Shown here one piece after another: positions 24,230 through 46,800 of a DNA stretch of 64,000 bases (position 1 is its first letter; the number at the start of each line of letters is the position of its first letter). The stretch is from Pseudomonadales bacterium (GTDB taxonomy: Bacteria > Pseudomonadota > Gammaproteobacteria > Pseudomonadales > Pseudohongiellaceae). A program made the position numbers and the translations under genes. Below the pieces are notes generated by a model that was not told the DNA's origin, did no database searches, and worked only from the letters and a program-made list of their open reading frames with translations. The stretch lies in NCBI GenBank assembly GCA_022822865.1, contig JAJDYJ010000047.1, positions 62,001 through 126,000 of the forward strand, read 5' to 3'.

Positions 24230-24306
24230 GGCTATGTAGCTCAGCTGGTTAGAGCACAGCACTCATAATGCTGGGGTCGCTGGTTCAAGTCCAGCCATAG
24301 CCACCA
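24230..24306 (+). tRNA. tRNA-Met (elongator, anticodon CAT)
   Basis: A full cloverleaf with acceptor GGCTATG/CATAGCC, D-arm with AGCTGGTTA, anticodon loop CTCATAA, extra loop GGGTC and encoded CCA. It closely resembles E. coli elongator tRNA-Met. The acceptor pairs at position 1-72, which excludes initiator tRNA. A lysidine-modified Ile tRNA cannot be excluded from the anticodon alone but the body fits Met. Confidence 0.92.
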
Positions 24307-24312
24307 ATCCCG

Positions 24313-25728
24313 TTACGCCATGTCGGCCCCGGCGTTCTCCGCCGCGAGAGCCTCGCGCACTTCATCGAGATTCAGCACGAGATCGGTATTCTTCTTGATT
24401 ACCTTGACCATCATGGTGGCGAGATTCGCCTGGGGCAATCCAAGGAAATCCTGGATCCTGGCCAGCGCTTCAGGGCGGGATTCGCACAGTTCCTCGTAAG
24501 TCACATGCAGGCAGCGGTGGCCCTGGAACATCTCGATGGCGGCTGCGTACCTTTGCCGATCTTCTCGTACGTAAGCGACGAAATCGGGGATATCGATGAC
24601 GAAGGGCTCCAGTTTCGGCCGCTGCTTGCTGGAACGGATGGAGAATACACCGGACTGTTTCGTCATCTGCAAGGATATGTACTTGTCCAGAATGTTCTTT
24701 CGCTGCAAGTGGATGATCTTGACGTCGGTGTCGGCGACGAGCAGATCGCGAAAGGGCTGGTACGCCTCGGCCAGCGATTCTTCCAGTTTGAATTTGAAGC
24801 CGACGCATTGATGTCCCGCGGGATTGAAGCAGACGTCGTAGAGATAGGCTCCCGGATGCTCCTGCCGGTATTTCCGCAGCCAGTCGTCGATGTCGGCCCC
24901 CTGTTTTCGCAATTCATGATACGGGCCGGCCGATTCATGGGGCGCGGCCAGAATCTCGCCGTGGCATAGCAGGCGCGGATGCGAATTCAGTAAGGTGCTC
25001 AGCATGGAACTGCCGCTACGGGCGGTGCAACTGATCATGAACTTGTCGTTGCGCTTGCGTCCGGACCTGTCGGAAGGCGGATGCGCGGCGGGACGATCCT
25101 GCCGTGGAGCGTTCCTGCCCAGATAGTCCAGGATTTCAGCGACGGCTTCATTGACGCCGAGTTTTTCCGTATCGATCCGCAACTCCGGATTGAGCGGCGC
25201 CTCGTAAGGGGAATCAATGCCCGTAAAGTCCGGCAACTCTCCCTTGCGCGCCCTTGCGTACAGCCCCTTGGGATCGCGCGATTCGCAGACGTTTAGCGGA
25301 GCGTCAATGAAGATTTCAAAAAACTCGCCTTGCGGAACCAGCGAGCGCGCCATTTCCCTTTGCGCGCGCAGCGGCGAAATCAGGGCGGCGATGACGATCA
25401 GGCCGGCGTCGATCATGACCTTGGCGACCTCCGCCACACGGCGCACGTTTTCCGCGCGGTCTTCGAGGGAAAAACCGAGGTCGCGATTCAGGCCGTGGCG
25501 CAGATTGTCGCCGTCCAGCAGATAGGTGTGCTTGCCGACAGCCTGGATTTCCTGTTCCAGACGGTTGGCGATGGTCGATTTCCCGGCTCCCGACAGTCCG
25601 GTCAGCCAGATGATCATCGGCCATTGCGCCAGATCGCGGGCCCGCTCCGCCTTGCCGATCCGGGTTTCCTGCCAGGTCACGTTGGCGCCTGGCCGTCCTG
25701 ATCGATTTTCTGGATTTTCTCCCTGCAT
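24313..25728 (-). CDS. Fused adenylylsulfate kinase-sulfotransferase
   Basis: A 471-residue bifunctional-looking protein. Residues about 20-205 are a complete APS kinase (CysC): Walker A GLSGAGKS, DGDNLRHGLNRDLGFS, the active-site Ser in LISPLRAQRE, and KGLYARARKGELPDFTGIDS. After a charged linker (about 206-228), residues 229-471 read as a PAPS-dependent sulfotransferase of the bacterial Stf0/NodH-like kind, with the 5'-phosphosulfate loop CTARSGSS at 234-241. The first module would make PAPS and the second use it. No acceptor can be named and no sulfate adenylyltransferase is nearby. The gene is convergent with tRNA-Met, only 6 bases away, and alone on its strand until mmsA. Confidence 0.85.
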   Translation of the reverse strand: MQGENPENRSGRPGANVTWQETRIGKAERARDLAQWPMIIWLTGLSGAGKSTIANRLEQEIQAVGKHTYLLDGDNLRHGLNRDLGFSLEDRAENVRRVAEVAKVMIDAGLIVIAALISPLRAQREMARSLVPQGEFFEIFIDAPLNVCESRDPKGLYARARKGELPDFTGIDSPYEAPLNPELRIDTEKLGVNEAVAEILDYLGRNAPRQDRPAAHPPSDRSGRKRNDKFMISCTARSGSSMLSTLLNSHPRLLCHGEILAAPHESAGPYHELRKQGADIDDWLRKYRQEHPGAYLYDVCFNPAGHQCVGFKFKLEESLAEAYQPFRDLLVADTDVKIIHLQRKNILDKYISLQMTKQSGVFSIRSSKQRPKLEPFVIDIPDFVAYVREDRQRYAAAIEMFQGHRCLHVTYEELCESRPEALARIQDFLGLPQANLATMMVKVIKKNTDLVLNLDEVREALAAENAGADMA

Positions 25729-25822: not shown

Positions 25823-27382
25823 TCAGGAAGGAAAGGAGAATTGCGGGCCGGAAGGGTCGTCGTCCTTGCGCGGGAGCCAGCGTTGGGTCATGGTCTTGCG
25901 CCGGGTGTAGAAGCGAATCGCATCGGGGCCGTAGGCGTAATGGTCGCCGAACAGCGAACGCTTCCAGCCGCCGAAACTCTGGCTGGCGACGGGCACCGGC
26001 AAGGCCACGTTGATGCCGACCATACCGATCTTCACCCGGTTCGAGAAGTACCGGGCCGCTTCGCCGTCGCGGGTGAAGAGCGCGGCGCCGTTGCCGTATT
26101 CGTGTTCGTTGACGAGCGCCACGGCCTGATCGAAATTTTCCGTACGCACCACGCATAACACCGGGCCGAAAATCTCGTCGCGGTAAATCGTCATTTGCGG
26201 TTCCACCCGGTCGAACAGGCAGGCGCCGAGAAAGAAGCCGCTTTCGTTGCCGGGCACTTCCAGACCGCGGCCGTCGACGGCCAGGTCGGCGCCTTCGACA
26301 AGTCCCTGGCCGATGTAGCCCTCGACGCGCTCAAGGCTTTCCTTCGACACCAGCGGCCCCATGTCGTTGCCGTTGTCGCTGCCGGGTCCGACCTTCAGGT
26401 CGGCGATTCGCCGCCGCAACAGGTCGACCAGTTGATCTCCCGTTTCCTCCCCTACCGTCACGGCTACGGAAATTGCCATGCAGCGTTGGCCGCAGGAACC
26501 GTAGGCCGCGCCCATGAGCGCATCGGCGGCGGCTTCGAGATCGGCATCGGGCAGGACGACGGCATGATTCTTGGCCCCGCCGAGCGCCTGCACGCGCTTG
26601 CCCGCGGCCGTGGCCCGGCGATAGATCGATTCGGCGACCGGCGTGGAGCCGACGAAGCTGACCGCCTGCACCCGCTCGTCGTCGAGCAGAACCTCCACGG
26701 CCTCGCGGCCGCCGTTGACGACGTTAAAGACGCCGTCGGGCAGTTCGGCTTCCTGCAACAGGCGGGCGACCAGCAGGGAGGCGCCTGGGTCGCGCTCGGA
26801 CGGTTTCAGAACGAAACTGTTGCCGCAGCAGATCGCCAGCGGATACATCCACATGGGCACCATGACGGGGAAATTGAACGGGGTAATGCCGGCGACCACG
26901 CCGAGCGGCTGCAATTCCGACCAACTGTCGATGCCCGGGCCCGCGTCGCGTGAGTGTTCGCCCTTGAGCAATTCGGCGATGCCGCAAGCGTATTCGACGA
27001 CTTCGATGCCGCGTTGCAGTTCGCCGCGGGCGTCGTTCAGCACCTTGCCATGCTCGCTGGTGATGACCCGGCAGATCTCGCCGGCGTGTTGTTCCAGCAA
27101 CTCGCGGAAGCGGAACATGATGCGGGCGCGCCTCTGGGGCGGCGTCGCGGCCCAGTCCGGCGCCGCCGCGCTTGCCGCGGCGATGGCCTGCTCCACCGTG
27201 GCGCGGTCGGCCATCCGCACCCGGCCGGTAGCGACTCCGGCCGCGGGATCGAATACGTCCTGCATGCCGCCCGATCCGGCAATTTCATTGCCTGCGATAA
27301 AGTGTCCGGTTACGGGCAGCGACGCAGCCGCGGATTCGGGTGTTTCGGCCACGGCGGAATCCCGCCGTTCAGCCGATTTCAT
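25823..27382 (-). CDS. mmsA: CoA-acylating methylmalonate/malonate-semialdehyde dehydrogenase
   Basis: A 519-residue aldehyde dehydrogenase of the MMSDH branch. Catalytic Asn170 lies in PFNFP and catalytic Cys301 in GQRCMA, the MMSDH signature. The enzyme oxidises methylmalonate semialdehyde to propionyl-CoA, or malonate semialdehyde to acetyl-CoA, with NAD and CoA. The ATG lies inside the last codons of the upstream transaminase gene (14-base overlap), so the two are coupled. The pairing with a beta-alanine-type transaminase points to beta-alanine breakdown; valine or inositol routes are alternatives. The first 25 residues are a non-conserved extension. Confidence 0.92.
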   Translation of the reverse strand: MKSAERRDSAVAETPESAAASLPVTGHFIAGNEIAGSGGMQDVFDPAAGVATGRVRMADRATVEQAIAAASAAAPDWAATPPQRRARIMFRFRELLEQHAGEICRVITSEHGKVLNDARGELQRGIEVVEYACGIAELLKGEHSRDAGPGIDSWSELQPLGVVAGITPFNFPVMVPMWMYPLAICCGNSFVLKPSERDPGASLLVARLLQEAELPDGVFNVVNGGREAVEVLLDDERVQAVSFVGSTPVAESIYRRATAAGKRVQALGGAKNHAVVLPDADLEAAADALMGAAYGSCGQRCMAISVAVTVGEETGDQLVDLLRRRIADLKVGPGSDNGNDMGPLVSKESLERVEGYIGQGLVEGADLAVDGRGLEVPGNESGFFLGACLFDRVEPQMTIYRDEIFGPVLCVVRTENFDQAVALVNEHEYGNGAALFTRDGEAARYFSNRVKIGMVGINVALPVPVASQSFGGWKRSLFGDHYAYGPDAIRFYTRRKTMTQRWLPRKDDDPSGPQFSFPS

Positions 27383-28685
27383 CGAGGCTCTCTCCCACCG
27401 CGTTTACGAGGGCGCTGATCTGTTCCGGAGTCGAAACGAAAGGCGGCGCCAACTGGATCGTATCGCCCCCCCAGCGAACGTAGAAACCTTTCTCCAGGCA
27501 TTTGAGGCCGATCTCGAAAGGCCGCCGCATGGGCTCGCCGGGATGGTGGGCGATGCTCACTCCCGCCGCCAGCCCGTAGTTGCGGATATCGGCGACCAGC
27601 GGATGGCCGCGCAGGCCATGGACTTCCTCTTCCAGCACCGGCGCCAGTTTGCGCACGTTCGCCGGAAGTTCGTCGTCGACCAGCACATTGAGCGCCGCGA
27701 TGCCGGCCGCGCAGGCTACCGGATGAGCCGAATAGGTATAGCCGTGAGGAAACTCGACCATGTAGTCCGGGCCGCCATGTTCCATGAAGGTTTCGTAGAT
27801 ATCGCCCCGCACCACCGCCGCGCCCATGGGAATGCAGCCGTTGGTGATCTGCTTGGCGAGAGCCATGATGTCGGGTGTGACGCCGAACTCCTCCGCGCCG
27901 GTATTGGCGCCCATGCGGCCAAGGCCGGTGATGACCTCGTCGAAGATCAGCAGAATATCGTGTTCGTCGCAGATCTCCCGCAGGCGGTTCAGATAGCCTT
28001 GGGGCGGGGGAATCACCCCGGCCGTGCCGGACATGGGCTCGACGATTACAGCCGCGATATTGCTCGCGTCGTGCAATACGATCAGATCGAGCACCTCTTC
28101 GGCAAGATGCGCGCCCGATTCGGGCATGCCCCGGCTGAAGCGGTTTTCCTCGGTCATCGTGTGGGAGATATGGTCGGCGTCCACGGCAGGCCCGAACAGC
28201 TTGCGGTTAAAGCCGATGCCGCCGACGGCGACGCCGCCGAAATTCACCCCGTGATAGCCCTTGTGCCGGCCGATGAAGCGGGTCTTGCCGGAGTGGCCCT
28301 TGAGCGCCCAGTAGGCGCGGGCGATCTTCAGGGCCGTATCGACGGTTTCCGAACCGGAATCCGTGAAGAACACGTGGTCGAGTCCGTCGGGCATGAGTTC
28401 CACCAGCTTGTTGGCCAGTTGGAAGGAAAGCGCGTGTCCATACTGGAAGCCCGGGGAGTAATCGAGTTCGGCGAGCTGGCGGCTGACGGCATCGACGATC
28501 TCGCGGCGGGCGTGCCCTGCCCCGCAGGTCCACAGGCCCGACAGGCCGTCGAAAATGCGCCTGCCGTCGACGTCGAAGTAGTAGACGCCCTGGGCCGATT
28601 GCAGCAGCCGCGGATTGTCCTTGAACTGGCGGTTGCCGCTGAAGGGCATCCAGTGGGCTTCGAGTTCCGCACGATTCAGTTTCAT
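27369..28685 (-). CDS. Class III omega-aminotransferase, beta-alanine:pyruvate type
   Basis: A 438-residue PLP enzyme of fold type I. Asp249 (in IFDEVITG) would bind the pyridine nitrogen and Lys278 (ALAKQI) would form the Schiff base. HWMPFSGNRQF near the N terminus and FFTDSGSETVDTALKIARAY are typical of beta-alanine:pyruvate transaminases, which turn beta-alanine and pyruvate into malonate semialdehyde and L-alanine. The downstream mmsA product would convert that semialdehyde to acetyl-CoA. Taurine or other omega-amino acids are possible substrates too. The gene is 10 bases after the symporter gene, so all three are likely one operon. Confidence 0.88.
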   Translation of the reverse strand: MKLNRAELEAHWMPFSGNRQFKDNPRLLQSAQGVYYFDVDGRRIFDGLSGLWTCGAGHARREIVDAVSRQLAELDYSPGFQYGHALSFQLANKLVELMPDGLDHVFFTDSGSETVDTALKIARAYWALKGHSGKTRFIGRHKGYHGVNFGGVAVGGIGFNRKLFGPAVDADHISHTMTEENRFSRGMPESGAHLAEEVLDLIVLHDASNIAAVIVEPMSGTAGVIPPPQGYLNRLREICDEHDILLIFDEVITGLGRMGANTGAEEFGVTPDIMALAKQITNGCIPMGAAVVRGDIYETFMEHGGPDYMVEFPHGYTYSAHPVACAAGIAALNVLVDDELPANVRKLAPVLEEEVHGLRGHPLVADIRNYGLAAGVSIAHHPGEPMRRPFEIGLKCLEKGFYVRWGGDTIQLAPPFVSTPEQISALVNAVGESLDEIG

Positions 28686-28695
28686 GTCGTTCGAC

Positions 28696-30264
28696 TCACT
28701 TTACGGTGGCCGGCCGGCCTGGCGATTCCTCGGTTCCCCGGGGCGCGGCGAGGGAATCCAGTTCCGACCGGTATTCCCGCTCAAGCGGTTCGGAAGGCCA
28801 GATCAACGCTACCGCCCAGCCTACCAGCAAGGCAAAAAGGAAAGAAGGCGGCATTGTTTCCAGTGCGACGAAATACTCTCTCGTACCGTCAAGTTCCTGC
28901 AACACGAACTTGCTGACGATGGTCATCGAGAATCCGGCCAGCATGGACGCGATCGCCCCGCGCTCGGTAAATTTCGACCAGAACAGCGACAGGACGATCA
29001 TCGGACAGAATGTCGCCGCGATCCCCGACCAGCCGAAAATCACGAACCAGAAAATCGTTCGTTCGGGCGAAAGCACCGAGACCGTGACGGCCAGACCCAG
29101 CGCCAGCGCCGCCATCGCCAGCGTCACCTTGCGGCACAGACTCGCGGCGGCCGCGTCGCCGAGACCGGGATTGATCACGCGCGCGTAGAGATCGTGGGTC
29201 AGCGAACCCGCGGCCATGACGAGCAGGGAGGATACCGTGGACATGATCGCGGCCAGCACGGCGGCGACGTACAGGCCGACGACCCAGGGCGGGAACGTGT
29301 ATTCGACCATTTCCGGCAATACGTCCTGGGCGCCGTTGCCGAGCACCGTGTCCGGCTGTGCGCCGACCTCGGTGAACAGGTAGCGGCCGAGAATACCGAT
29401 GCTGACGGCGCTGAAGCCCGCCAGGAAGGTGAAGAGCAGCGCGACCCATTTGCCGCGATCGATCTGTTCGCTGCTGCGAATCGCGATCAACCGCGCGAAA
29501 ACCTGGGGAGAGCCGAGAAAACCCAGACCGATGAGCCCCATGCCCAGGATCAGGAAGAAACTCATCAGGGACGGGCCGCCGGCGCCCCAGAAGCTGACCA
29601 GGCCGGGGTCGATCGCTTGCAGGCCGGCGTAGATCGCATCAGAACTGTCGAGGGAAAACCAGGCCACCACCGGCAGCAACACCAGGCAAAGCAACATGAC
29701 CGAGCCCTGGAACATGTCGGTCCATGCCGCGGCGAGAAATCCGCCGGCGATGCAATAGGCGGCCACGACCAGAAATCCGACTATCGCCCCCGTCATGTAA
29801 TCCCAGTCCAGAAAGGAGGCGAAGGCGGAGCCGGTGGCGTCGATCTGCGCCGAGATGTAGATGAGAACGAAGAAACAAAGTGAAATCGCCGAAATCACGC
29901 GCAAGGTCTGCGTCGATGACTTGAAGCGGCTGACCAGATAGTCGATGACGGTGAGCGATTCGTAATTGTCGGTGAGCTGCTTGAAGCGCGGCGCCATGAC
30001 GAACCAGGCCACGGCCACGCCGATGACTTCGCCGACGACGATCCAGTACGCCGAAAAGCCCACCATGGCGCCCATGCCGGTGACGCCGAGCAGCAGCCAG
30101 GCCGACTCGCCGGTGGCCTGGGCGGAAAACGCGGCGACCCAGAATCCGAGGCGTTTGCCGCCGACGACGAAGTCGCTCATGTTGCGGATGCGCCGCGCGG
30201 CAAGCCAGCCGAGCACGACAAGCACGCCGAAATACAAGGTGATCATCGCGTATTTTTCAAACAT
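28696..30264 (-). CDS. Sodium:solute symporter (SSS/PutP family)
   Basis: A 522-residue membrane protein with about 13 hydrophobic helices. The PutP-like N-terminal segment FVVGGKRLGFWVAAFSAQAT, the GFLGSPQVFARLIAIRS signature and the YVAAVLAAIMSTVSSLLVMA helix all fit a sodium-coupled transporter in the inner membrane. The ATG at 30264 is taken; a GTG nine codons upstream is possible, with no clear ribosome-binding sequence at either. Operon placement before the transaminase and mmsA suggests uptake of beta-alanine or a related amino acid, which is inference. The C-terminal 35 residues are hydrophilic. Confidence 0.88.
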   Translation of the reverse strand: MFEKYAMITLYFGVLVVLGWLAARRIRNMSDFVVGGKRLGFWVAAFSAQATGESAWLLLGVTGMGAMVGFSAYWIVVGEVIGVAVAWFVMAPRFKQLTDNYESLTVIDYLVSRFKSSTQTLRVISAISLCFFVLIYISAQIDATGSAFASFLDWDYMTGAIVGFLVVAAYCIAGGFLAAAWTDMFQGSVMLLCLVLLPVVAWFSLDSSDAIYAGLQAIDPGLVSFWGAGGPSLMSFFLILGMGLIGLGFLGSPQVFARLIAIRSSEQIDRGKWVALLFTFLAGFSAVSIGILGRYLFTEVGAQPDTVLGNGAQDVLPEMVEYTFPPWVVGLYVAAVLAAIMSTVSSLLVMAAGSLTHDLYARVINPGLGDAAAASLCRKVTLAMAALALGLAVTVSVLSPERTIFWFVIFGWSGIAATFCPMIVLSLFWSKFTERGAIASMLAGFSMTIVSKFVLQELDGTREYFVALETMPPSFLFALLVGWAVALIWPSEPLEREYRSELDSLAAPRGTEESPGRPATVK

Positions 30265-30427
30265 GAGAGAAGCCTGCTTCGGAGTTCGCACGATGATAAC
30301 CCCAGCCCACGGCTCTCACCAGTGGGTGTCCCATCACCGCCATCACTGTGCGACTGGTAACCTTTGCTCCCGCCGGAATCCGGCGATATAGTTGCCGCAT
30401 CGCATCCATTTTCCCAGGAGTCGTTCC
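30265..30427. promoter_or_regulatory. Divergent intergenic region, symporter versus amidohydrolase
   Basis: A 163-base gap between divergent genes. It must hold promoters for both, but I could not pick convincing -35/-10 pairs. It contains one TGGGTGTCCCA palindrome (30323-30333) shared with 55160-55174 and ispE. The amidohydrolase ribosome-binding sequence AGGAG is near 30416-30420. Confidence 0.4.
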
Positions 30428-36396: not shown

Positions 36397-37017
36397 TCAA
36401 TTCTTCAGCATCTCTTTTGTCATCTCCAGATATGTTTTCCGCTTGTTTGGTTGACCCTTGAACGCTTTATCAAGAACATCGTCAATTCCGCGCGGGTATC
36501 CATGCATTGCAACGGCCATAGCCAAAAATCTTGTAATCGGGTCATTGCTAGGAATCGGGAACGCCGGATAAGTCGTAGGTAGCTGGGTTACCGCTCCGCT
36601 CAGTGTAACCTGCCGTTGACCAAGCAACTCGTTAAGTTGTACATGATCATATCCATGGGCCGTAACGTCACGTTGCGATCCTGGTTCAAACCGAAACGCA
36701 AACGGTGAACCCCGCGGCGACAGGACAACCAAATCAAAGGACAAGGCTGCTTGGCCTGCCCGACCAACCCAAGGTGCAAAGAAGGCCGCGAACACACGAT
36801 TCTGCTTGCATGGCATGGGGATCAGCTTCATGGGGTTGCCATTTTTGGCATACGGTCGGAACGGAATGGTAACCGCACTTTCAGCAATTCCCTGTTGCGT
36901 CGCAATATCAACGCCTATTACACGCGCCCGCGCCTTGACACGAGGCGACTCGTTCGCCCAATGCTGCAATCCAAGCCTTGCGTATGCCAAAAGCAATTCA
37001 TAATTCAAAGCACTCAT
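36397..37017 (-). CDS. Unrecognised protein in the GHKL-receiver cassette
   Basis: A 206-residue soluble protein I do not recognise. It starts MSALNYELLLAYARLGLQHW and has a central segment (ALSFDLVVLSPRGSPFAFRF, then HGYDHVQLNE) likely to form beta strands, followed by a Pro/Thr-rich linker and a basic helical C terminus (KGQPNKRKTYLEMTKEMLKN). No clear PD-(D/E)xK, HNH, GIY-YIG or Walker motif is seen. It starts 3 bases after the stop of the receiver gene, so the two are translated together, and convergence with the N6-methyltransferase gene bounds the operon. It may be the effector or an adaptor of the cassette, or a divergent nuclease. Confidence 0.8.
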   Translation of the reverse strand: MSALNYELLLAYARLGLQHWANESPRVKARARVIGVDIATQQGIAESAVTIPFRPYAKNGNPMKLIPMPCKQNRVFAAFFAPWVGRAGQAALSFDLVVLSPRGSPFAFRFEPGSQRDVTAHGYDHVQLNELLGQRQVTLSGAVTQLPTTYPAFPIPSNDPITRFLAMAVAMHGYPRGIDDVLDKAFKGQPNKRKTYLEMTKEMLKN

Positions 37018-37020
37018 GGG

Positions 37021-38256
37021 TCACGTCGCACTTCCCAAGATTCGGCTACGAGGCGAGTAAAGATAGTCGTCTACATACGCGATATAGCGCCTTGTCCATG
37101 ACCCCTCGATTTCCGACTCGAACTCCTGTGGAGAGTCCTCCCCGTCGTTCACACACACGAAACGTGACACGTCCTCACAGAAAACGGCGTCCGGCCAGTC
37201 GCCTTTCGCATTGAAAAATTTTTCGCTAAGAGCATCGTCCGACTTGAGCTTAGGCCACCAAAAACATGGACCGGGTACCCACATTTCGTGATCAAAGCGC
37301 GCTGTGATCAGATGATCCTCGAACAGCCGAGCATCGAGACCAAAGGGAGACTCGTCACTTCCTAATACGGCATTCCAGCAATCAAGTCTGTGCGCGTCAT
37401 TTCCCAACAGGAACGGCATCTGTGACAGCAGATGCGGCAAGTCAATCAATACATCTTGTGTTCCCAACACATCCCGTCGCAGCCAACGATCAACCTCATA
37501 AGCCGATATTCGGTGAATGGCTTTCCTTGCCGATTCATTTCCGTTTGAGGCTAATTTCTTCAATTGTTTGATGTCAGCCGGAGGCACCGCCCTACTTGTA
37601 TCAAGAAACACTTCAAAAGAAGTTTCCCGTTCACTTTTTTCAGCTGACGACAAATGCGACTTTGCTCGCAGCGAAAGATAATCGTCTGCTTCTGAAGGAA
37701 AATTAAGTGCTTCCCACACTGGACTTTCGAAGTTTTCCTCAACAAAAACGTTTTGCTTTCTTCGTCGTGCCGCTGCATCCTCAATGCGCGGCCAATACCA
37801 AGGCGCAAAATCGCCCTCCGACTTTCCGACCCACAGACGGTGGTTAGTCAAATGCCTAGTGTTCAGCGCTAGGTCGGACAGTGATTGATAGTCACCAAAC
37901 AAATATCTCAGGTCAAAATCTACATGCGGATTCTTGTTTAGCGAAATGATGTAAGGCGTGTCGGCAAACGCTCGCAGATACCCAATTATTGTCTCCGCCG
38001 TCATCCTGGCGCCATCTAACTGCAAATCGGTGAGATTGTTGTCGACAATTAGGACATCGAACTCATCAAACGAATCCGCCGAATCATCGACTTGACTTAA
38101 GTTGCCGTCGAGGATCGTGGACACGGTACTAAGAAAATCGGTCAGAGCATCCTTCAATTTCGCGCCAGCGAGAGACTTAACAATACCCCGACTAATGATT
38201 TTTTGTTCCGTTTTCTCGGCTTGCTCCGGCTTGTCGTCACAAATCAATATCTTCAT
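37021..38256 (-). CDS. Receiver-domain protein with unknown C-terminal region
   Basis: A 411-residue protein from MKILICDDKPEQAEK. An ATG five codons upstream exists, but the one at 38256 overlaps the GHKL gene stop (ATGA) and has AGGA at good spacing. The first 120 residues are a response-regulator receiver with all key residues: acidic pocket Asp7-Asp8, phospho-acceptor Asp72 (LIVDNN), Ser105 and Lys108 (ISLNKN). No HTH, GGDEF or other standard output domain follows; the 290-residue remainder has Trp-rich patches (FAPWYWPRIED, VPGPCFWWPK) and is unrecognised. Its direct partner is the upstream histidine-kinase-like protein. Confidence 0.85.
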   Translation of the reverse strand: MKILICDDKPEQAEKTEQKIISRGIVKSLAGAKLKDALTDFLSTVSTILDGNLSQVDDSADSFDEFDVLIVDNNLTDLQLDGARMTAETIIGYLRAFADTPYIISLNKNPHVDFDLRYLFGDYQSLSDLALNTRHLTNHRLWVGKSEGDFAPWYWPRIEDAAARRRKQNVFVEENFESPVWEALNFPSEADDYLSLRAKSHLSSAEKSERETSFEVFLDTSRAVPPADIKQLKKLASNGNESARKAIHRISAYEVDRWLRRDVLGTQDVLIDLPHLLSQMPFLLGNDAHRLDCWNAVLGSDESPFGLDARLFEDHLITARFDHEMWVPGPCFWWPKLKSDDALSEKFFNAKGDWPDAVFCEDVSRFVCVNDGEDSPQEFESEIEGSWTRRYIAYVDDYLYSPRSRILGSAT

Positions 38257-40610
38257 CTTAATCCTTTCCATGAAAGCTCAATTGCTGTTGAGAATCCTTC
38301 CGGCGGGCTAACGAAGGAAACGTCTGCGTTTCTGCTGTGTGCAATCATTCGTACGATCGCCAATCCGAGACCTTGTCCTCCAATGGCGATTGATAAATTC
38401 TGCGACCTTATCGAAGTCCGCCGCTCAAACGCTTCGAACAGTATCCCGGCATCTTCCAAGGGCATTTTCAAACCGACACCCGTGTCGCTTACCCGAAGAT
38501 ACTGCCGCCGGTCGTTGCTGGGTGAACCATCGAATCGGACAATTCGTGTTTTGGAATCCAGCATCGCGTTCCAGGCATTGAAAAGCAAATTCTGGATAAT
38601 CGCGCTCCATTCGACGAATGAGCCCACTGGAAAGAGCAAATCGCGTGGGATCGACTTCTTGTAGTCGAAAATCACGCCTGACAATCTCGGCTTAAGCGCC
38701 CTGACCACTTGGCCCACAGCGGATTCCACTCCCAGCCGCTTGTCCGCGCGGCGCTCTTCCGGATTAGCAAGCGGGGAAAACAATCGTCGGAACGTGTCGA
38801 ATCGAATCTGATACTCCTGCATCGTCATCACCGCTTTCTCCATTTTGTCCGATGGATGCGACTTGGCGAGTTCACGTAACAATCCGTCCAACTCCTTTAA
38901 GAGCGCGGCATCATTAGAAAGTTCGTGATTCATTGCCAACGCTGCCATCCCTGCTGTAGCCAGCGGCGCGAGAAGCGTTGCACGGCTATCGATTGCCTTG
39001 GACTCTTTCTCTACCGCAGTGCGCGCCGCTACGACTTTCCGCTTAACGTCCTGATATGCGGCTTTTGGCATCTCAAATTTGTAGGTATTGAGAGTCGACA
39101 CGGCATTATCTAAGACTCTAGACGGTCGCTCCTTCCCCCGTTGCTGTTGCGCAACGTCGTCCGATATGGCCCGATATCTGTTCGCGTACAAATCGAGTCC
39201 AAACCGGACCAAGTCTCGAAGTTGTTTGAATGATGTGTTTGGCGCCAGCCGGTCCCGCCCAGGTTGAATCTGCAGACAGTCACCTCGGACCGGCAGCTTG
39301 GCCACCACCTTGGCCTCAAGATTGGTATCTACATCCACCGCACCAAAGATGCGACCCGGATTTGGTAGATCAAGCAGATAACGCGTCCCGGTTCGCAACC
39401 GCTCAGGTAGTAACTCAGAAGTGATCAAGCGTCGGCCCTGATCGACGCCCAAGTCTAGCCAATCCTGTCCCCCTAGATCTCGATTCCCATAGTACGGTAG
39501 TCGAAAACCGCCATCGTAGACCAATACGCCTCCATGCATTCTTAAGTATTCGCGCATTTCCCCTACGGACAGTCCACCCGGTTGCCGTCCTTCCGTCTTA
39601 AAAACGAATATCGTGAAGCGCGCCTTATCCAGCGCCGGCACCATGACGCCATCGTCTTTCTGGGTAGCTTTATCGCCATCCTTGGCTCCGTCACTCGATG
39701 CTTCGGACGAATCGCCCTCATCATCCGCTACGGCCGACCGCCGAACTACAGGAAACCTGACTGTCTCGCGGTAGGTTCTCGCGTCACCAACACCTTCAGG
39801 GTAATTCGGCACAAACTCAACCATCACCGTGGCCTCGCTCCCGCCCGAACGTTGCCGCCCATCCTCTATCACACCGGAGATTCGTGCCTTCCAGTTATTG
39901 AACAGGGCATCGTGCAGTTTGTCGAAATGCTCCCTCGCACTCTCAATTTCTGACGCGCGCAGATCTATGTGGAAATCCAGGGCAGTCTTACCTTTGGTCT
40001 TACCCCTCCCATCCCGGAACGGCGAGCGGAGCATCCAAACATCTTTGCCTAAGGCTTCGAGCGCCGAGCCATCCCATGTCGTTTTTAGTCCAGTTAGCGT
40101 TATCTTTGTACCAATGGGCGAACTATCCGGATAGGTCGATTGCTCACGGAAGTTGTCCCACTCCACTTCAACGGTTTGCAAATCCTCCCCACTACGGATG
40201 TTCCTCCAGTCCACATAAGCGTAGACCATCTGTTCCGGATTTGCTTCGCAGTTGCTCTCAAGCTCCATCTCATCTGCCAAGAACTGGACCGACAATCGAC
40301 CGAGACCTTTTGAGCCAGTCATTGCCCTGTGGAGATTTCGCGATGCACGCGCATCTACTTTGTGTGTAGTTCCGATTCGCATCCAATAGCTGATAAATTC
40401 GTCTTCCGAAATCCCGTGCCCGTTGTCGGTGATCACGATACGATCTTTCTCGAACTCGATACGGCATGTATGAGCATCGGCGTCATAGGAGTTTTTCACA
40501 AGCTCGGCTAGCGCAATGTGGGCTTGACCAATGAGCCGTTCGCCCAGTTCACGCAATAGCGCAGCGTCTACAGTGAAGTGCTCCTTATTGCGTTGCTTCT
40601 TGTCAGGCAT
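38253..40610 (-). CDS. Double-GHKL ATPase: MORC/HSP90-like plus histidine-kinase-like
   Basis: A 785-residue protein with two ATP-binding modules. Near the N terminus ALAELVKNSYDADA (Glu36, Asn40), ITDNGHGI and TGSKGLGRLS are the N, G1 and G2 boxes of the HSP90/MutL/MORC type. The C-terminal third is kinase-like: a possible phospho-accepting His near residue 562 (LAMNHELSND), an N box IIQNLLFNAWNAM near 670-683, SDTGVGL and GGQGLGLA. In between are an S5-like region and a charged acidic linker near residues 290-320. The downstream receiver protein starts in a 4-base overlap. Together they look like a two-component pair sensing something through the first ATPase. MORC-type ATPases in prokaryotic restriction loci are known; the function of this one is inferred. 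Start chosen at ATG 40610 over GTG 40631. Confidence 0.88.
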   Translation of the reverse strand: MPDKKQRNKEHFTVDAALLRELGERLIGQAHIALAELVKNSYDADAHTCRIEFEKDRIVITDNGHGISEDEFISYWMRIGTTHKVDARASRNLHRAMTGSKGLGRLSVQFLADEMELESNCEANPEQMVYAYVDWRNIRSGEDLQTVEVEWDNFREQSTYPDSSPIGTKITLTGLKTTWDGSALEALGKDVWMLRSPFRDGRGKTKGKTALDFHIDLRASEIESAREHFDKLHDALFNNWKARISGVIEDGRQRSGGSEATVMVEFVPNYPEGVGDARTYRETVRFPVVRRSAVADDEGDSSEASSDGAKDGDKATQKDDGVMVPALDKARFTIFVFKTEGRQPGGLSVGEMREYLRMHGGVLVYDGGFRLPYYGNRDLGGQDWLDLGVDQGRRLITSELLPERLRTGTRYLLDLPNPGRIFGAVDVDTNLEAKVVAKLPVRGDCLQIQPGRDRLAPNTSFKQLRDLVRFGLDLYANRYRAISDDVAQQQRGKERPSRVLDNAVSTLNTYKFEMPKAAYQDVKRKVVAARTAVEKESKAIDSRATLLAPLATAGMAALAMNHELSNDAALLKELDGLLRELAKSHPSDKMEKAVMTMQEYQIRFDTFRRLFSPLANPEERRADKRLGVESAVGQVVRALKPRLSGVIFDYKKSIPRDLLFPVGSFVEWSAIIQNLLFNAWNAMLDSKTRIVRFDGSPSNDRRQYLRVSDTGVGLKMPLEDAGILFEAFERRTSIRSQNLSIAIGGQGLGLAIVRMIAHSRNADVSFVSPPEGFSTAIELSWKGLR

Positions 40611-40704
40611 CTGGCTCAGCCCCGTAGGCACCTAGCGAACAACAGCCAGGAACGAATGTACTTACCCGAAAGGTCGGCTTTGCCAGTCTTTTCATCAGTC
40701 TTGC

Positions 40705-43700
40705 CTACTTGCTCAGAACGTCTTCAAGCACTTGCTTAAGGCTGTCACCATTCTCTCCCAGTCGATAAACCCCTTCGTCATGGTTTGCAGGCATTTCCTT
40801 GCTTACGGACAGAATGTATGAATGCAGCCGCAAGTCCGATCTGTTTAGTTTTGGCTCGATTTCCTTGATCGACTTGTGCAATCCGATTTTCGCCTGATTG
40901 TCGCCATGCACCAGTCCTTTCGGGTCGAGGAAGATCATATGGGTCTCGTCTTGTCCGATCAGCCAGCAGATGAAGTCCGGATAGTACGCATCCTTGCCAT
41001 AGAATCCGGTTCCGGATCGGGAGGCGTTGCGCATCAGGTATAGCTCGAAATCGGTGATTGGAGGCTTGCCGACCAAGGCCATCAGTTCCTCGACCGTCTG
41101 CTTTTCGCCCTTATTCAGCGGCAATGGCTGGACCGTTACCGGTGATTTGTCATGCTGATAAATCACCGGAATATACGCATGTCGCGAAGGCACCATAATC
41201 TCCAGGCCAAGAGATGCCACCTTGCGCTCTTCCATCTTCTCGCATAGTTCGCCGATATCGTCTACCAGAGCCCGCCAATCCTCTTGCCGGCTCTCGCTCA
41301 CTTTCAGAAATTCGGTTTCAACGGCAATGGTATATTCCTTGATCAAGCTGCCATCGTCCGACTGAAGCTCCCCGACCTCCTTGTTTTCCTTCTCCCAGTT
41401 CCATACACCGTTTTTCCAGTTCGCTTCGATCAGCTTGGAGGCCAAATCGATAAAGCGGTTTTCCTGTGTTCTGACATCCGCCATGGACCCCAATCGAACC
41501 GCCGTGGCAGGCGCGTAAACTTGATACCAGTCGTTGTTTCCTATCAGTTGATCCACGAAACCGGCATCCAACTCCAGATTGTGCATTTTCCGCTGCTGTT
41601 TGAAGGCCAGCAGCGAACGATAAATCCTTGGCTTGTCGAACAGGCCGACCACGGCGTCGAATCGATACGGCTGCTTGGCGTGATCTTCCAAGGTTTCATC
41701 GATTTCGCCGACAGTCTGCATCTTCGAATATAGATCCAGTTTGGCGCTTCGCTGGTAATTCGCCAAGCTCAACTTCACTCTGTCCCCATCGGTCTCGAAC
41801 GCCGCACCGGATTTGGTTCTCAGCATGGGAAGCCTGACATTATCGGGAAGCTGAGTCTTTACCGGAATCTTGAAAAGCTCCATGTCTGGCTGAATCTGTT
41901 CCTTGCCCAGCATCTCCTTGAATTTCTTCATGTAATCGGCGCGCAGCCCGAAGATGTTCAAGGTTTCGAGCAGTCCGAGTTCTTCGCTGTGCTCCGGCGG
42001 CGGCGCGTCGAGTTGCCTGTGGCGTTTCAAACTCAAGCCGAGACCTTTCAGTCGAACTCCGCGGCCGAACATCTGAATGATCTGCGGTCCCTGGCTGACC
42101 CCGACGTTCAGTAGCGTCATCGTGCTGACGCGCCAACTGTTCCACCCTGCGATGAATTTTCTGGCCCCGATGAGAATGTTCACAGGCGAATCCGGCGCAT
42201 CCACCTTGCTAAAAAGCCTGTCGGCAAATCCGGCATCCCTATGCGTGTACGCATCGATGCCCGCATCGCCCTCCTTCAACAGTTTGTGGACTTCGGCCGG
42301 AGCACCCACATTGATGACGCCGAAAACCTCGCCGTTCACGCTGTTTTTCAGGTGCAGTTCTCCCCGCCCTTGCGTCAGATACACGACATGCAAGCTGCCG
42401 CTGCCGTGAAACAGGTGATCGCAAAGGTCGTCATACAACGCCGCCGGGGGAAGTGCTTGCGAATTCAGCCAGTTCAAGCGCTCGGCAAACCAGTCGCTGG
42501 TGGCGGTATCCGACACCAATCCCGCCTTGCCGGCAAGCACGGATTCGATTTCCGCTTCCACTTCATCGCGGCTTTCCAGCACCCAATGCAGGAATCGAAT
42601 GATCTCGATAATGTCGGTTCGGCCTTTCACCGACAGTTTTCCCGTCGCCGTGGTGACGGTATGCCCGAGCATGACCCAGAGCGGCCGCGTGACGTTGTAG
42701 TCCGCCCAGTACCGCCCAAGTTGCCGGTATACCTTCATTTGCTGATAAAAGACGAGCATCGCTCCTACCTGGTAGGCGCGCTGGTTCGCGTCCTGCAATC
42801 CGGTCGCCAGATTGGCGACGCTATGGTCCTTGCCGTAGCCGTCGCGATAGAAATGGCGGTAGGAGTAATCGAACAGCAGGCACTTGCTGTAATGGCTCAG
42901 CAATTCTTCCTTCTCGACAATCTGATTGAAAGTGGCGGAATACTCCAAGGTGAAACCTTCGGCAGCGAGCCTGCCCCGCCGCTGCCGCGTAACCGCCTCG
43001 TCGCCGGCCTTGCCCAGGTGGCCTTCATCGACGAGCACCAGATTTCGCGTGCCAAGCTCGCGCACATCTACTACCACATCCTTGGTTTGATCGCCGAGTT
43101 TGTGAATGTCGATGATCTGCACCGGTTGCGTAGCCGCGAGTCCCGCGCCGGCGTCTTTCTGGAACAGTCTGGCGGCGATTCGGCTTTGGCGCAGTTCGCG
43201 CAAATGTTGCGCTGACATGTCCGCATCGGGCGTCACCAGGTAAATGTTGTCGATGGCGCGGCCGAATTGTTTGGCGTAGTGCCGATACTGCAGTAGGTGC
43301 GCGTGCATGATCAGCGTCTTGCCCGAACCCGTCGCGCTCTGAAACGCGAGCGTGGAAAGATCGCCGGTTTCGTAATCGGGCAGATGCCGGATGCTGCCGT
43401 CGGCACTGGCACTTTTGAAAAGGTTCAGCTTGCGGCACAGCTCGTCCGCATCCTCGAACCAGCTATGCAGGTAGAATTCCGCGAGCAGCAAGGCCGCATA
43501 CTGGTGTGGTTTCCAGTTGCGGGAATGTCCCGCGCCGATTTTCAGGCGCTCGCTGTGGGCGCGGATGTTAACACCGTATCGCCGCAAGGTGTCCGGGTTT
43601 ATCTTGACGTGCGCGCGTTCGGCTATGCGATTGAGTACCGGGTGCCATGAGTCGCCCGGGGTTTCGTCGCGCAATTCCTTGAATTCCGCGAGCAAATCGC

Positions 43701-43800
43701 GAGTGGTCTCAAAACCGAAGCAAGTGCACACGTATCGGTTCAGCGCCAGTTGGCTTTCCAGCACCAGGGCCGACGGTTTTTTCACCTTCCTACGCCTCAT
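40705..43800 (-). CDS. Type III restriction enzyme Res-like helicase-nuclease
   Basis: A 1031-residue SF2 translocase and nuclease. Walker A is ATGSGKT at residues 156-162, Walker B DEGH at 258-261, motif III SAT at 288-290, and motif VI lies in QMFGRGVRLKG. The C-terminal region has a PD-(D/E)xK-type nuclease core: Pro941-Asp942 in YYPDFICWL and Asp959-Pro-Lys961 in IFLDPKGL. Type III Res acts only in complex with Mod. The gene begins 3 bases after the mod stop, the usual order. The protein is cytoplasmic. Its 94-base gap before the GHKL gene means the two cassettes could be co-transcribed. Confidence 0.9.
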   Translation of the reverse strand: MRRRKVKKPSALVLESQLALNRYVCTCFGFETTRDLLAEFKELRDETPGDSWHPVLNRIAERAHVKINPDTLRRYGVNIRAHSERLKIGAGHSRNWKPHQYAALLLAEFYLHSWFEDADELCRKLNLFKSASADGSIRHLPDYETGDLSTLAFQSATGSGKTLIMHAHLLQYRHYAKQFGRAIDNIYLVTPDADMSAQHLRELRQSRIAARLFQKDAGAGLAATQPVQIIDIHKLGDQTKDVVVDVRELGTRNLVLVDEGHLGKAGDEAVTRQRRGRLAAEGFTLEYSATFNQIVEKEELLSHYSKCLLFDYSYRHFYRDGYGKDHSVANLATGLQDANQRAYQVGAMLVFYQQMKVYRQLGRYWADYNVTRPLWVMLGHTVTTATGKLSVKGRTDIIEIIRFLHWVLESRDEVEAEIESVLAGKAGLVSDTATSDWFAERLNWLNSQALPPAALYDDLCDHLFHGSGSLHVVYLTQGRGELHLKNSVNGEVFGVINVGAPAEVHKLLKEGDAGIDAYTHRDAGFADRLFSKVDAPDSPVNILIGARKFIAGWNSWRVSTMTLLNVGVSQGPQIIQMFGRGVRLKGLGLSLKRHRQLDAPPPEHSEELGLLETLNIFGLRADYMKKFKEMLGKEQIQPDMELFKIPVKTQLPDNVRLPMLRTKSGAAFETDGDRVKLSLANYQRSAKLDLYSKMQTVGEIDETLEDHAKQPYRFDAVVGLFDKPRIYRSLLAFKQQRKMHNLELDAGFVDQLIGNNDWYQVYAPATAVRLGSMADVRTQENRFIDLASKLIEANWKNGVWNWEKENKEVGELQSDDGSLIKEYTIAVETEFLKVSESRQEDWRALVDDIGELCEKMEERKVASLGLEIMVPSRHAYIPVIYQHDKSPVTVQPLPLNKGEKQTVEELMALVGKPPITDFELYLMRNASRSGTGFYGKDAYYPDFICWLIGQDETHMIFLDPKGLVHGDNQAKIGLHKSIKEIEPKLNRSDLRLHSYILSVSKEMPANHDEGVYRLGENGDSLKQVLEDVLSK

Positions 43801-43803
43801 GGA

Positions 43804-46800
43804 TCAACCGGCTCCTGCATCGAACATCTTTTCGCGAAACACCAATTCCAGAGCGCTCGTCGCCCACGCGCCACTCGGCGGAGCGAGGCGGCCCAACTCG
43901 TTGTCGCCGTTGACGTACACCAGACCGGCGTTAAATTCCTTCCGGACAGGTTCACCATGAGCCTTGAACCAGGCGTTCAGGGCATCGTTATCGGTGAATT
44001 CGATATCCCGCCAAAGAATGAGACAGCGCGTCTCATTTGCGTCAATTCCCGTAATCGCCACTACGTCTTCAATGACTCGGCGGGCGTGAACGCGCAGGCC
44101 GATCAGATAATTGAAGGTTTCCGGCAAATCGACCGCCACGTCGCGGCGGGCGCCGTCGCGAACCACGGAGAGCGTATAGCCGCGGGGGCGGGCAAAATCG
44201 CCGCCGCATAAGGTCGCGCTGTTCGCGGTTTCGTTGGTCAACTGATAGCGCAAGGCATAATCTTCGGCCAGTTCGGGGTGGGCCGCGAACAGTTCGCCGA
44301 CGCCTTCAAGCGGTTTGACTTCCAGGCTGTCGAGCGCGTCTTCGTGGCTTTCCAGCCTGATGTACTTGAAAAATTGCGACTGGCCTTTGCGACTGACCGG
44401 CTTGCCGTCCTTCCAGTCGTGGGAATAGGCAACCTTCTTGATTCGCGGCAGCAACACCGTCTCGAAATGCTCCCCCATCTCAACCATGATGTATTTTCGA
44501 GAACCGCCATCTTCACGGTTCAAGTTCATTACCGCATGGGCGGTAGTGCCAGAGCCGGCGAAGAAATCAAGAATGTGGGCAGAATGTTGGCGCGCCCCTG
44601 CGACATAAATGGAATCGGCCACTGCATGAATTGATTTTGGATATGGAAAGACTGACTTGCCGAACATTTTCTTAAGGAGCGCCGTTCCATGATCGACAGC
44701 CGAATGCTTGGCATCAAACCAGCAAGATGTGGAAACCACTCCATCGTCGTGAGGCCTTCTTTTGTAGTAAACAAAATCCCGGCCTGTTCTGTCCTTGCGC
44801 ACCATCAACTCATTGAGCGAACGCATTACAGTCTCCCAACCCCAGCGCCAAGTTTTCTCCAATCCCTGATCGTTGTCGGGAAAGACGGCATGTTCTCCTT
44901 CTAGAGGTGCTTCCTTGGTTATCCATTCTTGCTGATCATAATCCCAAGTCATGCTTGGAACCCTGAGACTGCCGTTCCCAACAAAAATCGGGTAGTAAAG
45001 CTGCCGCCGATCAGACCGGTCGGAATTAGAACCTTCTCGGCGAAGATTTCTCCATTCAAATGGCCCCGTTTCATCAGTTTCCGAAAAACGCTCCATCTGA
45101 CGGTCGGAAGGAGGTAATCGGCCTATCGAGGAACTCGAACTATTTCCAGCGAAGATGAGGTACTCATGGGAGACTGAATAGCCGCTTTTCGTAGGGCGTC
45201 CCGATGGATTCGACCTAACCAGGATGACCCCGAGAATAGGCTCGGTGAAACTGTTGGAAATCAGGAAATTCAATTCCCGGAATTGCTCATCGTCTATGGC
45301 AGCGACTAAAACTCCCTCATTCGCCATCAGATGTTTGCTTACGTTAACTCTGTTCTCTAGCAGGGAAATCCAAGCTGAAGATTTATACCCATTTTTGTAC
45401 AAGATCGGAGACGCGTCAGTATTGTAAGGAGGATCTATGTATATGCACTGTATGCGACCACTATACTGAGGTTGCAATAGATTCAGCGCCTGAAAGTTTT
45501 CGCCGTACACCAGTAAGCCATCCAAGTCGTCCTCAATCGAAGCGTCTTCCGTACCATCTGCTAACGCGGTTAGCAGACGATCGATAAAATCCCGGTTGAA
45601 GTGTCTCGTATCAACAATCATATTGGGATTGTCACGCAGAATGTCCGCAGGCGGAGGCGTTGTGAAGCCCGCGATTTCGTCCAGCGCGTACAATTCCTCC
45701 CATTCGTCGACCTGGGCTGCGTTGGCGGCGATCTCGGCGTGAAGGGACTCTGGCACCTTGTCCAAGGTGATGCCGTAATTGGTTTCCAGCACGAATTTCT
45801 TTTTCAGCCAGATTGATTTGTGGAAGTCTTCCAGTTGCGCCAGGAAATCAATGATCTTGCCGCCAATCCCGCGCACCGCGCTCATCAGGACCAAGACGCG
45901 GCTCAGGCGGGCCTGATCGTCGGAGTTATCGGGGTCGAAGTCGTCCAGCGCCATGATCTCGGTTTTCAGGTACAGGTCGAGTTCCCTGCGCAGGAAACCC
46001 CGCAGATCCTTGTGAATGAAATAGTCGAAACTGTTCTTTGCCGTGTAAACGGCGAGATGCCTGGCGAGAACGGATCGCTCGGGGTCGCTTTCCGTCGGCG
46101 CAGGCAGCGCCAGCCTTTGCGCCCAGACTGGATCGAATTTTGTCGCCAGTTCCAGAATCGACGCTTGCATTTCGTCGTTCAGCCGAGCCTGGACATTGTT
46201 TTTCCCGGGCAGGGCCGCGGCTTCGGCGTCCGTCAAGGGCCTGTGGTCAAACGACACCACGAGTTGTTCGCCGTCCGCGGAGAGTCGCGCCCGCCCTTCG
46301 CGTGTCGTCAAGACAAAGCGCCGGTCCTTGCCGTTCTGCGCCTTGATGTTATCCTTTTCAGCGTCGGCGGCGGCGATTTCAAATCGCACCTTCGCATTTG
46401 CCGGCCAATTCTCGTGGCCGAAGACGTAGGAGGAAAAGTTCTCCGTGGTCTTGATGTAATACTGATCGGCGTTGGCCCAGTGCAGCTTGACCTCTTCGCC
46501 GTTGTAGGGAATGAGATAACTGGTGTCGCCATTGGCTTTCATGCGCCGCAGGGACATGAAATCGCCGCCGTCGTAATAGCGGCTGAAGAATTGATACAGA
46601 TGGTTGTATATGTGGCCTTCGGTAGCCGCGCCATCGCGGGCGGTTTTCAGTTCGGCGCGCTTGTTCCTGACCCACGGGATTTCTTCAACGGTTTCGCGGT
46701 CCATGCCGTCGCGGTTGTATGAAACGAGCTTCTTTTCGAGTTCGGACTCTAGCTCCTCGACGCGATCCGCCGTCAACCTCCATAGATTTTTCCTTGCCTG

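Follow-up and report, generated by a model that had tools for sequence, protein, structure and literature searches.

The fusion gene and its genomic context

The window, i.e., the whole stretch of 64,000 nucleotides that was analysed, comes from a marine bacterium and encodes a protein of 471 amino acids that consists of an APS kinase (CysC) and, in frame behind it, a NodH/Stf0-like PAPS sulfotransferase (Table 1). The initial annotation had placed a kinase and a sulfotransferase in one polypeptide, and this was confirmed, as both domain families are matched in frame. The gene is the last of four genes on the same strand, following genes for a symporter and an omega-aminotransferase and mmsA, from which it is separated by 94 bp, and a tRNA-Met gene is located 6 bases from its stop codon. 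It had been described as isolated and without sulfate adenylyltransferase genes nearby. The second part of this description holds, since no CysD or CysN gene is found nearby and the matches of the genome to the CysD-containing family are not on contig C94, to which the window belongs, but on C43 and C53. The gene itself is not isolated. The four-gene order is kept on the same strand in all five carriers that cover it (the window and the loci L012, L014, L047 and L049); at L013, mmsA alone precedes the fusion before the contig ends, and L011 begins inside the fusion. Elsewhere in the window, a lower-GC3 block (36400-46998, reverse strand) encodes a type III methyltransferase and restriction subunit, a GHKL-ATPase protein with a weak match to a REase_II model and two proteins without a family match, and is likely a restriction-modification island.

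Table 1. Features of the fusion gene and its neighbours (positions in the window).
Feature	Position	Strand	Basis or remark
APS kinase-sulfotransferase fusion CDS, 471 aa	24313..25728	-	ATG at 25728, TAA at 24313-24315
APS kinase module, residues 15-205	25114..25686	-	PF01583, apsK, phmmer to plant and human APS kinases
P-loop GLSGAGKST, residues 44-52	25573..25599	-	alignment
DGDNLR, residues 72-77 (D72, D74, R77)	25498..25515	-	position by alignment
K154 of DPKGLY (= Lys562 of M. tuberculosis CysC)	25267..25269	-	alignment
Linker, residues 206-225	25054..25113	-	unconserved, length-variable
Sulfotransferase module, residues 226-465	24334..25053	-	PF13469/PF00685; 9vki NodH
5'-phosphosulfate-binding loop CTARSGSSML, residues 234-243	25000..25029	-	R237 and G239 invariant in rows aligned
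E258, candidate catalytic base	24955..24957	-	in all 21 rows aligned
3'-phosphate-binding segment R343...S352	24673..24702	-	R and S in all 21 rows aligned
Sodium/solute symporter	28696..30291	-	TIGR00813, 195.8 bits vs 184
Class III omega-aminotransferase	27369..28685	-	NF052567 AptA, 677 bits vs 500
mmsA, CoA-acylating methylmalonate-semialdehyde dehydrogenase, upstream neighbour	25823..27382	-	TIGR01722, 640 bits vs 448; synteny
tRNA-Met (cat), convergent	24230..24306	+	close 3' of kinase gene in 8/10 carriers

The kinase half matches the Pfam family APS_kinase over residues 37-186 (E 7.9e-67) and the NCBIfam model apsK (TIGR00455) with 244.8 bits against a cut-off of 138.7, and its nearest solved structures in a phmmer search are plant and human APS kinases. 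The sulfotransferase half matches Sulfotransfer_3 (PF13469) over residues 232-432 (E 2.4e-10, 41.5 bits against a cut-off of 27), which makes it a distant member of its family, and also Sulfotransfer_1 (PF00685; E 2.9e-5, 24 bits against 22). Its sole strong solved relative is 9vki, named 'LPS sulfotransferase NodH' (E 9.4e-6 with the single protein and 1.9e-7 with a seven-row profile). In Pfam, the Stf0 model (PF09037) gave no match for the fusion protein at E 0.001; this model is matched by a free-standing homologue of the sulfotransferase (L236). The domains found with Pfam and NCBIfam are the kinase and the sulfotransferase, with no ATP sulfurylase or CysN domain on the chain, and no NRPS module was found behind the kinase with Pfam.

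Conservation of the catalytic residues

In the CysC of M. tuberculosis, the available text of PMC4373884 describes Lys456 and Ser458 of the P-loop, Asp478 as holding the Mg water and Asp480 as the proposed base, reported to be essential in mouse APS kinase. In addition, Arg483 and Arg497 contact APS, Cys556 belongs to the lid and Lys562 acts on the transition state. Aligned with these, the kinase of the fusion has K50, S51, D72, D74, R77, R91, S118, C148, K154 and F168 all in place, in which R77, R91, K154 and C148 are the counterparts of Arg483, Arg497, Lys562 and Cys556, respectively. By the roles described in the same source, as far as its text is available, D72 would hold the Mg water, D74 would be the proposed base and R77 would bind the phosphosulfate of APS (PMC4373884).

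In the sulfotransferase half, R237, G239, E258, R343 and S352 are present in all seven fusions and in the 14 free-standing homologues aligned. From work on Stf0, E258 is presumably the catalytic base. The earlier statements that the N-terminal module has every CysC motif and that the C-terminal module has a PAPS-binding CTARSGSS loop are borne out by these alignments, and none of the residues compared is missing in either module. Both modules are intact by motif, and both are predicted to be active.

Distribution of the fusion

A query with the sulfotransferase domain matched 7 of the 84 genomes of the genus, and in all seven the domain lies in frame behind a kinase. One of the seven fusions is cut by a contig end and begins at residue 76, and two are on single-contig chromosomes, the assemblies being independent. 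Because the same in-frame two-domain gene recurs in this way, the fusion is neither a chance frame nor an assembly error; it is a real, conserved and new architecture built from two known families. Six fusion carriers consist of two chromosomes labelled 'uncultured Pseudohongiella' and four MAGs labelled 'Pseudomonadales bacterium'. The three jk18x MAGs among them are named in the way of the Caribbean Ircinia sponge metagenomes in the available text of PMC9531527.

Outside the genus, the relatives of the sulfotransferase are distant and free-standing. They were found in 10 other genomes among the 390 of the order (frames of 251-341 aa) and in 12 other genomes in a phylum sample of 398 (251-356 aa). 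A profile of the whole fusion matched 305 of the 398 phylum genomes; among the matches listed, both domains are spanned by the own genome only, and none of the other matches listed reaches beyond profile position 264. The 522 plasmid records and five phage records with a match contained no fusion, and no relative of the sulfotransferase was found in the viral contigs of IMG/VR, in which a scan with the kinase part gave two kinase relatives. The two-domain arrangement is therefore present in 7/84 genomes of the genus and nowhere else among those sampled, with queries that follow this kind of sulfotransferase and that a fusion to an unrelated kind would escape. In the open literature searched, mainly titles and the openings of abstracts, no report of an APS kinase-sulfotransferase fusion was found.

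Two sets of candidates for further fusions were rejected. Plasmid matches had a coverage of up to 76%, but in the two that were inspected (H1 and H3) the part aligned after the kinase lies behind its stop codon and matches by chance. The second set, frames of about 395 aa at other kinases in the genus, consists of a CysN barrel and CysC and is not another kind of fusion with a sulfotransferase. Such proteins occur in many genomes of the genus (L121-L149, e.g., L142:829-2013) and combine a CysN-like beta-barrel (GTP-eEF1A_C), without a GTPase domain, with a canonical APS kinase.

History of the locus

In a tree of the kinases, the free-standing kinases of the genomes G089, G036 and G094 form one clade with the fusions (support 100/99). 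The kinase of G094 nests among the fusions with a 42-aa linker (100/98), and its gene ends after the first part of the linker with a stop codon that touches the tRNA-Met gene. No sulfotransferase is left in 15 kb at this locus, and these three observations together indicate that the sulfotransferase was deleted. In G036, a free kinase is located 40 bases from the same tRNA-Met gene, behind glycogen-synthesis genes. As G094 and G036 keep the kinase without the sulfotransferase, use of the kinase does not need the fusion. The flanking genes of G089 are 95% identical to those of the window, but its kinase is only 68.5% identical; from mmsA to tRNA-Met, this locus (L224:7315-11718) encodes the kinase, a diacylglycerol kinase (DgkA), a sulfatase-fold membrane protein and a GDPD-domain protein.

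In 8 of 10 carriers, the tRNA-Met gene either overlaps the 3' end of the kinase or fusion gene or is at most 45 bases from its stop codon; the distance is about 350 bases in L049 and 3.8 kb in G089. The site is variable, with the sulfotransferase expendable and the kinase kept. One gain and two losses tie under parsimony with two gains and one loss; a single gain is favoured because both domains diverge to a similar extent from one subclade to the other. Two further observations were made around the tRNA-Met gene. In G077, the fusion frame overlaps the convergent tRNA-Met gene at the 3' end of the tRNA (L047:8720-8738), and in G021 about 4 kb of extra genes, absent from the window, lie between tRNA-Met and ychF (L011:1431-5691). 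These genes encode 2OG-Fe(II) oxygenase-domain, AAA and methyltransferase-like proteins, and the tRNA-Met region is variable here as well.

Selection on the two domains

Pairwise dN/dS was calculated by the Nei-Gojobori method for eight pairs; the kinase has values of 0.055-0.154 and the sulfotransferase values of 0.117-0.167. Both domains are under purifying selection. These values bear on the possibility that the kinase is a general PAPS supplier, above all for a TPR-sulfotransferase, and that the appended sulfotransferase is a dispensable passenger not coupled to it. The genome of the window has such a TPR-sulfotransferase (contig C52) and a Sulfotransfer_1 protein (contig C8), and another PF13469 sulfotransferase of the long-frame type is present in all seven fusion genomes and in G089, G094 and G036. 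The passenger reading is also in line with G094, where kinase and linker outlasted the sulfotransferase, and with the slightly faster evolution of the sulfotransferase half in seven of the eight pairs. A passenger would decay, however, and both the clear purifying selection on the sulfotransferase and the family invariants kept in every fusion argue against this reading, which we regard as somewhat unlikely. A sulfotransferase that works together with its kinase is preferred.

The APS kinase domain of CysNC

Apart from the fusion, one other true APS kinase domain is present in the genome; it forms the C-terminal part of CysNC, which is encoded on contig C43 next to CysD. A third PF01583 match (contig C91, 23 bits) was rejected, since it has an SRP-GTPase-like P-loop by eye and is not an APS kinase. 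The CysNC kinase domain (L015:2978-3553) has DGKT in place of DGDN and DPSGLY in place of DPKGLY, so that Asp480 is replaced by Lys and Lys562 by Ser, and the Phe of FTG is replaced by Val. In a comparison of the CysNC loci L015, L150-L177 and L193-L211, Asp480 and Lys562 were both lost in all 28 domains sampled from the genus, seven of which are from fusion carriers. In the wider order, the pair is K/S in 6/6 CysNCs of the sister genus and Q/Q in 9/9 of family f21 (Pseudomonas-like), with one Q/S and two Q/D; the remaining 10 rows examined, which are from beyond these lineages, are canonical and mostly free-standing kinases. For one f21 protein, a close match of the CysN part is chain 1zun_B, which we take to be from Pseudomonas syringae. 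A tree of kinase domains separates the pseudo-kinases from the rest by a branch with 100/100 support, and the branches on either side of it are long.

Based on these residues, the APS kinase domain of CysNC looks dead and appears to be a conserved pseudo-kinase, and the literature searched, mainly titles and openings of abstracts, yielded no description of a CysNC with an inactive kinase domain. With both catalytic residues missing from CysNC, no intact APS kinase other than the fusion was found in the genome, and the fusion is probably also the source of PAPS for the other sulfotransferases, in which case some PAPS must escape from it. The whole CysNC passes the bifunctional model (912.7 bits against 715), so the inactivity of its kinase is judged at the level of residues.

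Alternatively, the divergent CysC domain could still be active, which would make the fusion redundant for PAPS and leave it to serve its own sulfotransferase only. The P-loop, Asp478, Arg483 and Arg497 are retained, so binding of ATP and APS may survive, the domain is conserved at full length in families f1 and f21, and that of the own CysNC passes the apsK model, although barely (144.1 bits against 138.7). Against this stand the replacement of both Asp480 and Lys562 in four different patterns (K/S, Q/Q, Q/S and Q/D) and the occurrence of sulfotransferases across the genus. A sulfotransferase is present in 43 of 51 genomes with a canonical kinase and in 8 of 23 with the pseudo-domain only or no domain (84 genomes in total; Fisher p 6.5e-5, a test that ignores relatedness and incomplete assemblies), as well as in 8/10 genomes with only a weaker or partial kinase match. 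Among genomes at least 90% complete, the counts are 29/32 and 4/11 (p 9e-4, relatedness ignored). In addition, 15 of 45 canonical or weaker kinases, with the fusions left out, lie within 10 kb of a sulfotransferase, compared with none of 45 pseudo-domains (p 1.5e-5, relatedness ignored; 114 of the 124 sulfotransferase rows were used), so that TPR-sulfotransferases are frequent gene neighbours of such kinases and never of the pseudo-kinases. The eight genomes of the 23 that have a sulfotransferase without an intact or weaker kinase match speak against a simple link of kinase and sulfotransferase. Taken with its replaced residues, an active CysC domain in CysNC is considered unlikely, and the reading in which the fusion supplies PAPS beyond its own sulfotransferase is retained.

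The CysH of the genome, encoded on contig C53, has CC...CxxC and ECGLH motifs, which we take to be those of the APS type. Its score is above the cut-off of the model for thioredoxin-dependent APS reductase (252.3 against 235.3) and below that of the PAPS reductase equivalog (140.5 against 254.2). Two less strict models are passed as well, namely NF002537, 'phosphoadenylyl-sulfate reductase' (259.2 against 154), and TIGR00434 (169.1 against 165.1). The scores for the first two models indicate that cysteine synthesis need not use PAPS. CysH likely uses APS, which would leave PAPS for the sulfotransferases only.

The linker and the transfer of PAPS

The linker has dN/dS values of 0.25-0.79 in seven of the eight pairs, dS being saturated in the eighth, and a length of 18-20 aa in the subclade of the window and 42 aa in the other subclade. 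An unconserved linker of variable length agrees with a flexible tether, and a fixed channel is not favoured by it. It had been proposed that PAPS is handed directly to the sulfotransferase and that its release is thereby limited. The direct hand-over is not supported by this linker, nor by the presence of another sulfotransferase in every carrier. A limited release is doubtful in view of the two other sulfotransferases of the genome, the dead-looking kinase of CysNC and the relatives that keep the kinase after loss of the sulfotransferase, all of which fit with PAPS also leaving the protein.

Tight channelling, in which PAPS passes from kinase to sulfotransferase within one chain or dimer without mixing into the bulk solution, would agree with the covalent fusion itself and with human PAPSS2 and SULT2A1, which need a direct, transient contact according to the available text of PMC6016456. 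The freedom of the linker in length and sequence and the other sulfotransferases without a kinase of their own in the same cells make it improbable. AlphaFold models made with seven sequences (pLDDT about 52 for the whole fusion and 39.3 for the sulfotransferase alone) showed no interface, being too poor to show one. A flexible tether is preferred over such a channel.

Possible products

A dedicated sulfated product such as a surface glycan or lipid, as proposed initially, is weakly hinted at by the cluster of G089 and by two loci of free-standing sulfotransferases. In G130, a pair of distant relatives lies among polysaccharide genes (glycosyltransferase, DegT and sugar-transferase), and in G261 a homologue adjoins an acyltransferase-SGNH gene. 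No glycan cluster was seen by eye in the gene tables of two further regions, in G396 and G786, and the suggested search for neighbouring glycan genes gave no consistent answer. That the product is instead a small molecule of the symporter-aminotransferase-mmsA genes, e.g., an amino alcohol or amino acid derivative, is a remote prospect: strand and gene order are kept in the covering carriers and the gap to mmsA is 94 bp in the window, but the mmsA-aminotransferase pair occurs without the fusion in most genomes of the genus (the fusion is found at 4 of 30 mmsA loci read) and the kinase of G036 follows glycogen-synthesis genes instead, so the link to the neighbours looks positional.

Comparison with known systems

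The whole kinase module, including all substrate-binding and catalytic residues, resembles CysC and CysNC (PF01583, TIGR00455), from which the fusion differs in having a C-terminal sulfotransferase and no ATP sulfurylase or GTPase part. The sulfotransferase shares the PAPS loop, the Glu after this loop and the R...S segment with NodH/Stf0-like enzymes (PF13469, PF09037; 9vki), but carries its own APS kinase. Rhizobial NodH works beside separate NodP and NodQ proteins, and on a plasmid of S. chiapasense a sulfotransferase gene, cysD and cysN are separate genes, unlike the fusion.

The closest published precedent found is SulI of sulfazecin synthesis, in which, according to the available text of PMC11298585, an APS kinase is fused to an NRPS module and the sulfotransferase SulN is a separate protein. 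As far as this text goes, SulI is similar in that an APS kinase is fused to a biosynthetic partner for PAPS supply; SulN acts in trans, whereas in the window the sulfotransferase itself is the partner. Several unfused systems have also been described, each known here from part of its report. In the adp cluster, a PAPS cassette raises di-sulfation (PMC12135136), and dedicated unfused APS kinases are present in the cysNDC of the Vibrio capsule (CPS; PMC11641403) and as sxtO in saxitoxin clusters (PMC2679770). All three share with the fusion an APS kinase that is devoted to one sulfated product, but consist, in the text available, of separate genes in operons or clusters rather than one polypeptide. 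Human PAPSS2, a PAPS maker, works next to a sulfotransferase through direct contact with SULT2A1 (PMC6016456, text as available); this is a transient contact of two proteins, in contrast to the covalent fusion in the window.

Proposed mechanism and implications

On balance, we favour, with moderate confidence, the interpretation of the protein as a bifunctional, PAPS-making sulfotransferase with a flexible tether that would also feed the PAPS pool of the cell. In this mechanism, CysDN, encoded elsewhere, would make APS, which the N-terminal kinase would phosphorylate to PAPS. The C-terminal NodH/Stf0-like module would use the PAPS made beside it to sulfate an acceptor hydroxyl, after which PAP would leave. 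The advantage of the tether would be a raised local concentration of PAPS without a fixed tunnel, and the rest of the PAPS may be shared with the other sulfotransferases of the cell.

More tentatively, and with less than even confidence, it is suggested that the CysNC of this lineage is a pseudo-kinase that binds but does not phosphorylate APS and that PAPS is made only on demand, by separate kinases tied to sulfotransferases. If so, sulfate activation in the lineage would stop at APS for cysteine synthesis, and the tie of kinase and sulfotransferase would take the form of a gene neighbourhood, a CysN-barrel-CysC protein or, as here, a covalent fusion, which would be a one-protein station for the supply and use of PAPS. 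The pseudo-kinase would then be an APS-sensing part of the sulfurylase complex, and the pattern would extend to Pseudomonas-like bacteria.

The fusion alone is a modest finding, and it gains weight from the CysNC of the same cell, whose APS kinase activity is apparently lost. If the pseudo-kinase is confirmed, many CysNC proteins annotated as bifunctional would not make PAPS. A shared pool is the usual view of PAPS supply, and the fusion offers a simple system in which to ask whether local supply matters, with fused, split and sulfotransferase-deleted versions at one locus as natural controls. As a sulfotransferase that may regenerate its PAPS from a single gene, it could also be tested for biocatalysis.
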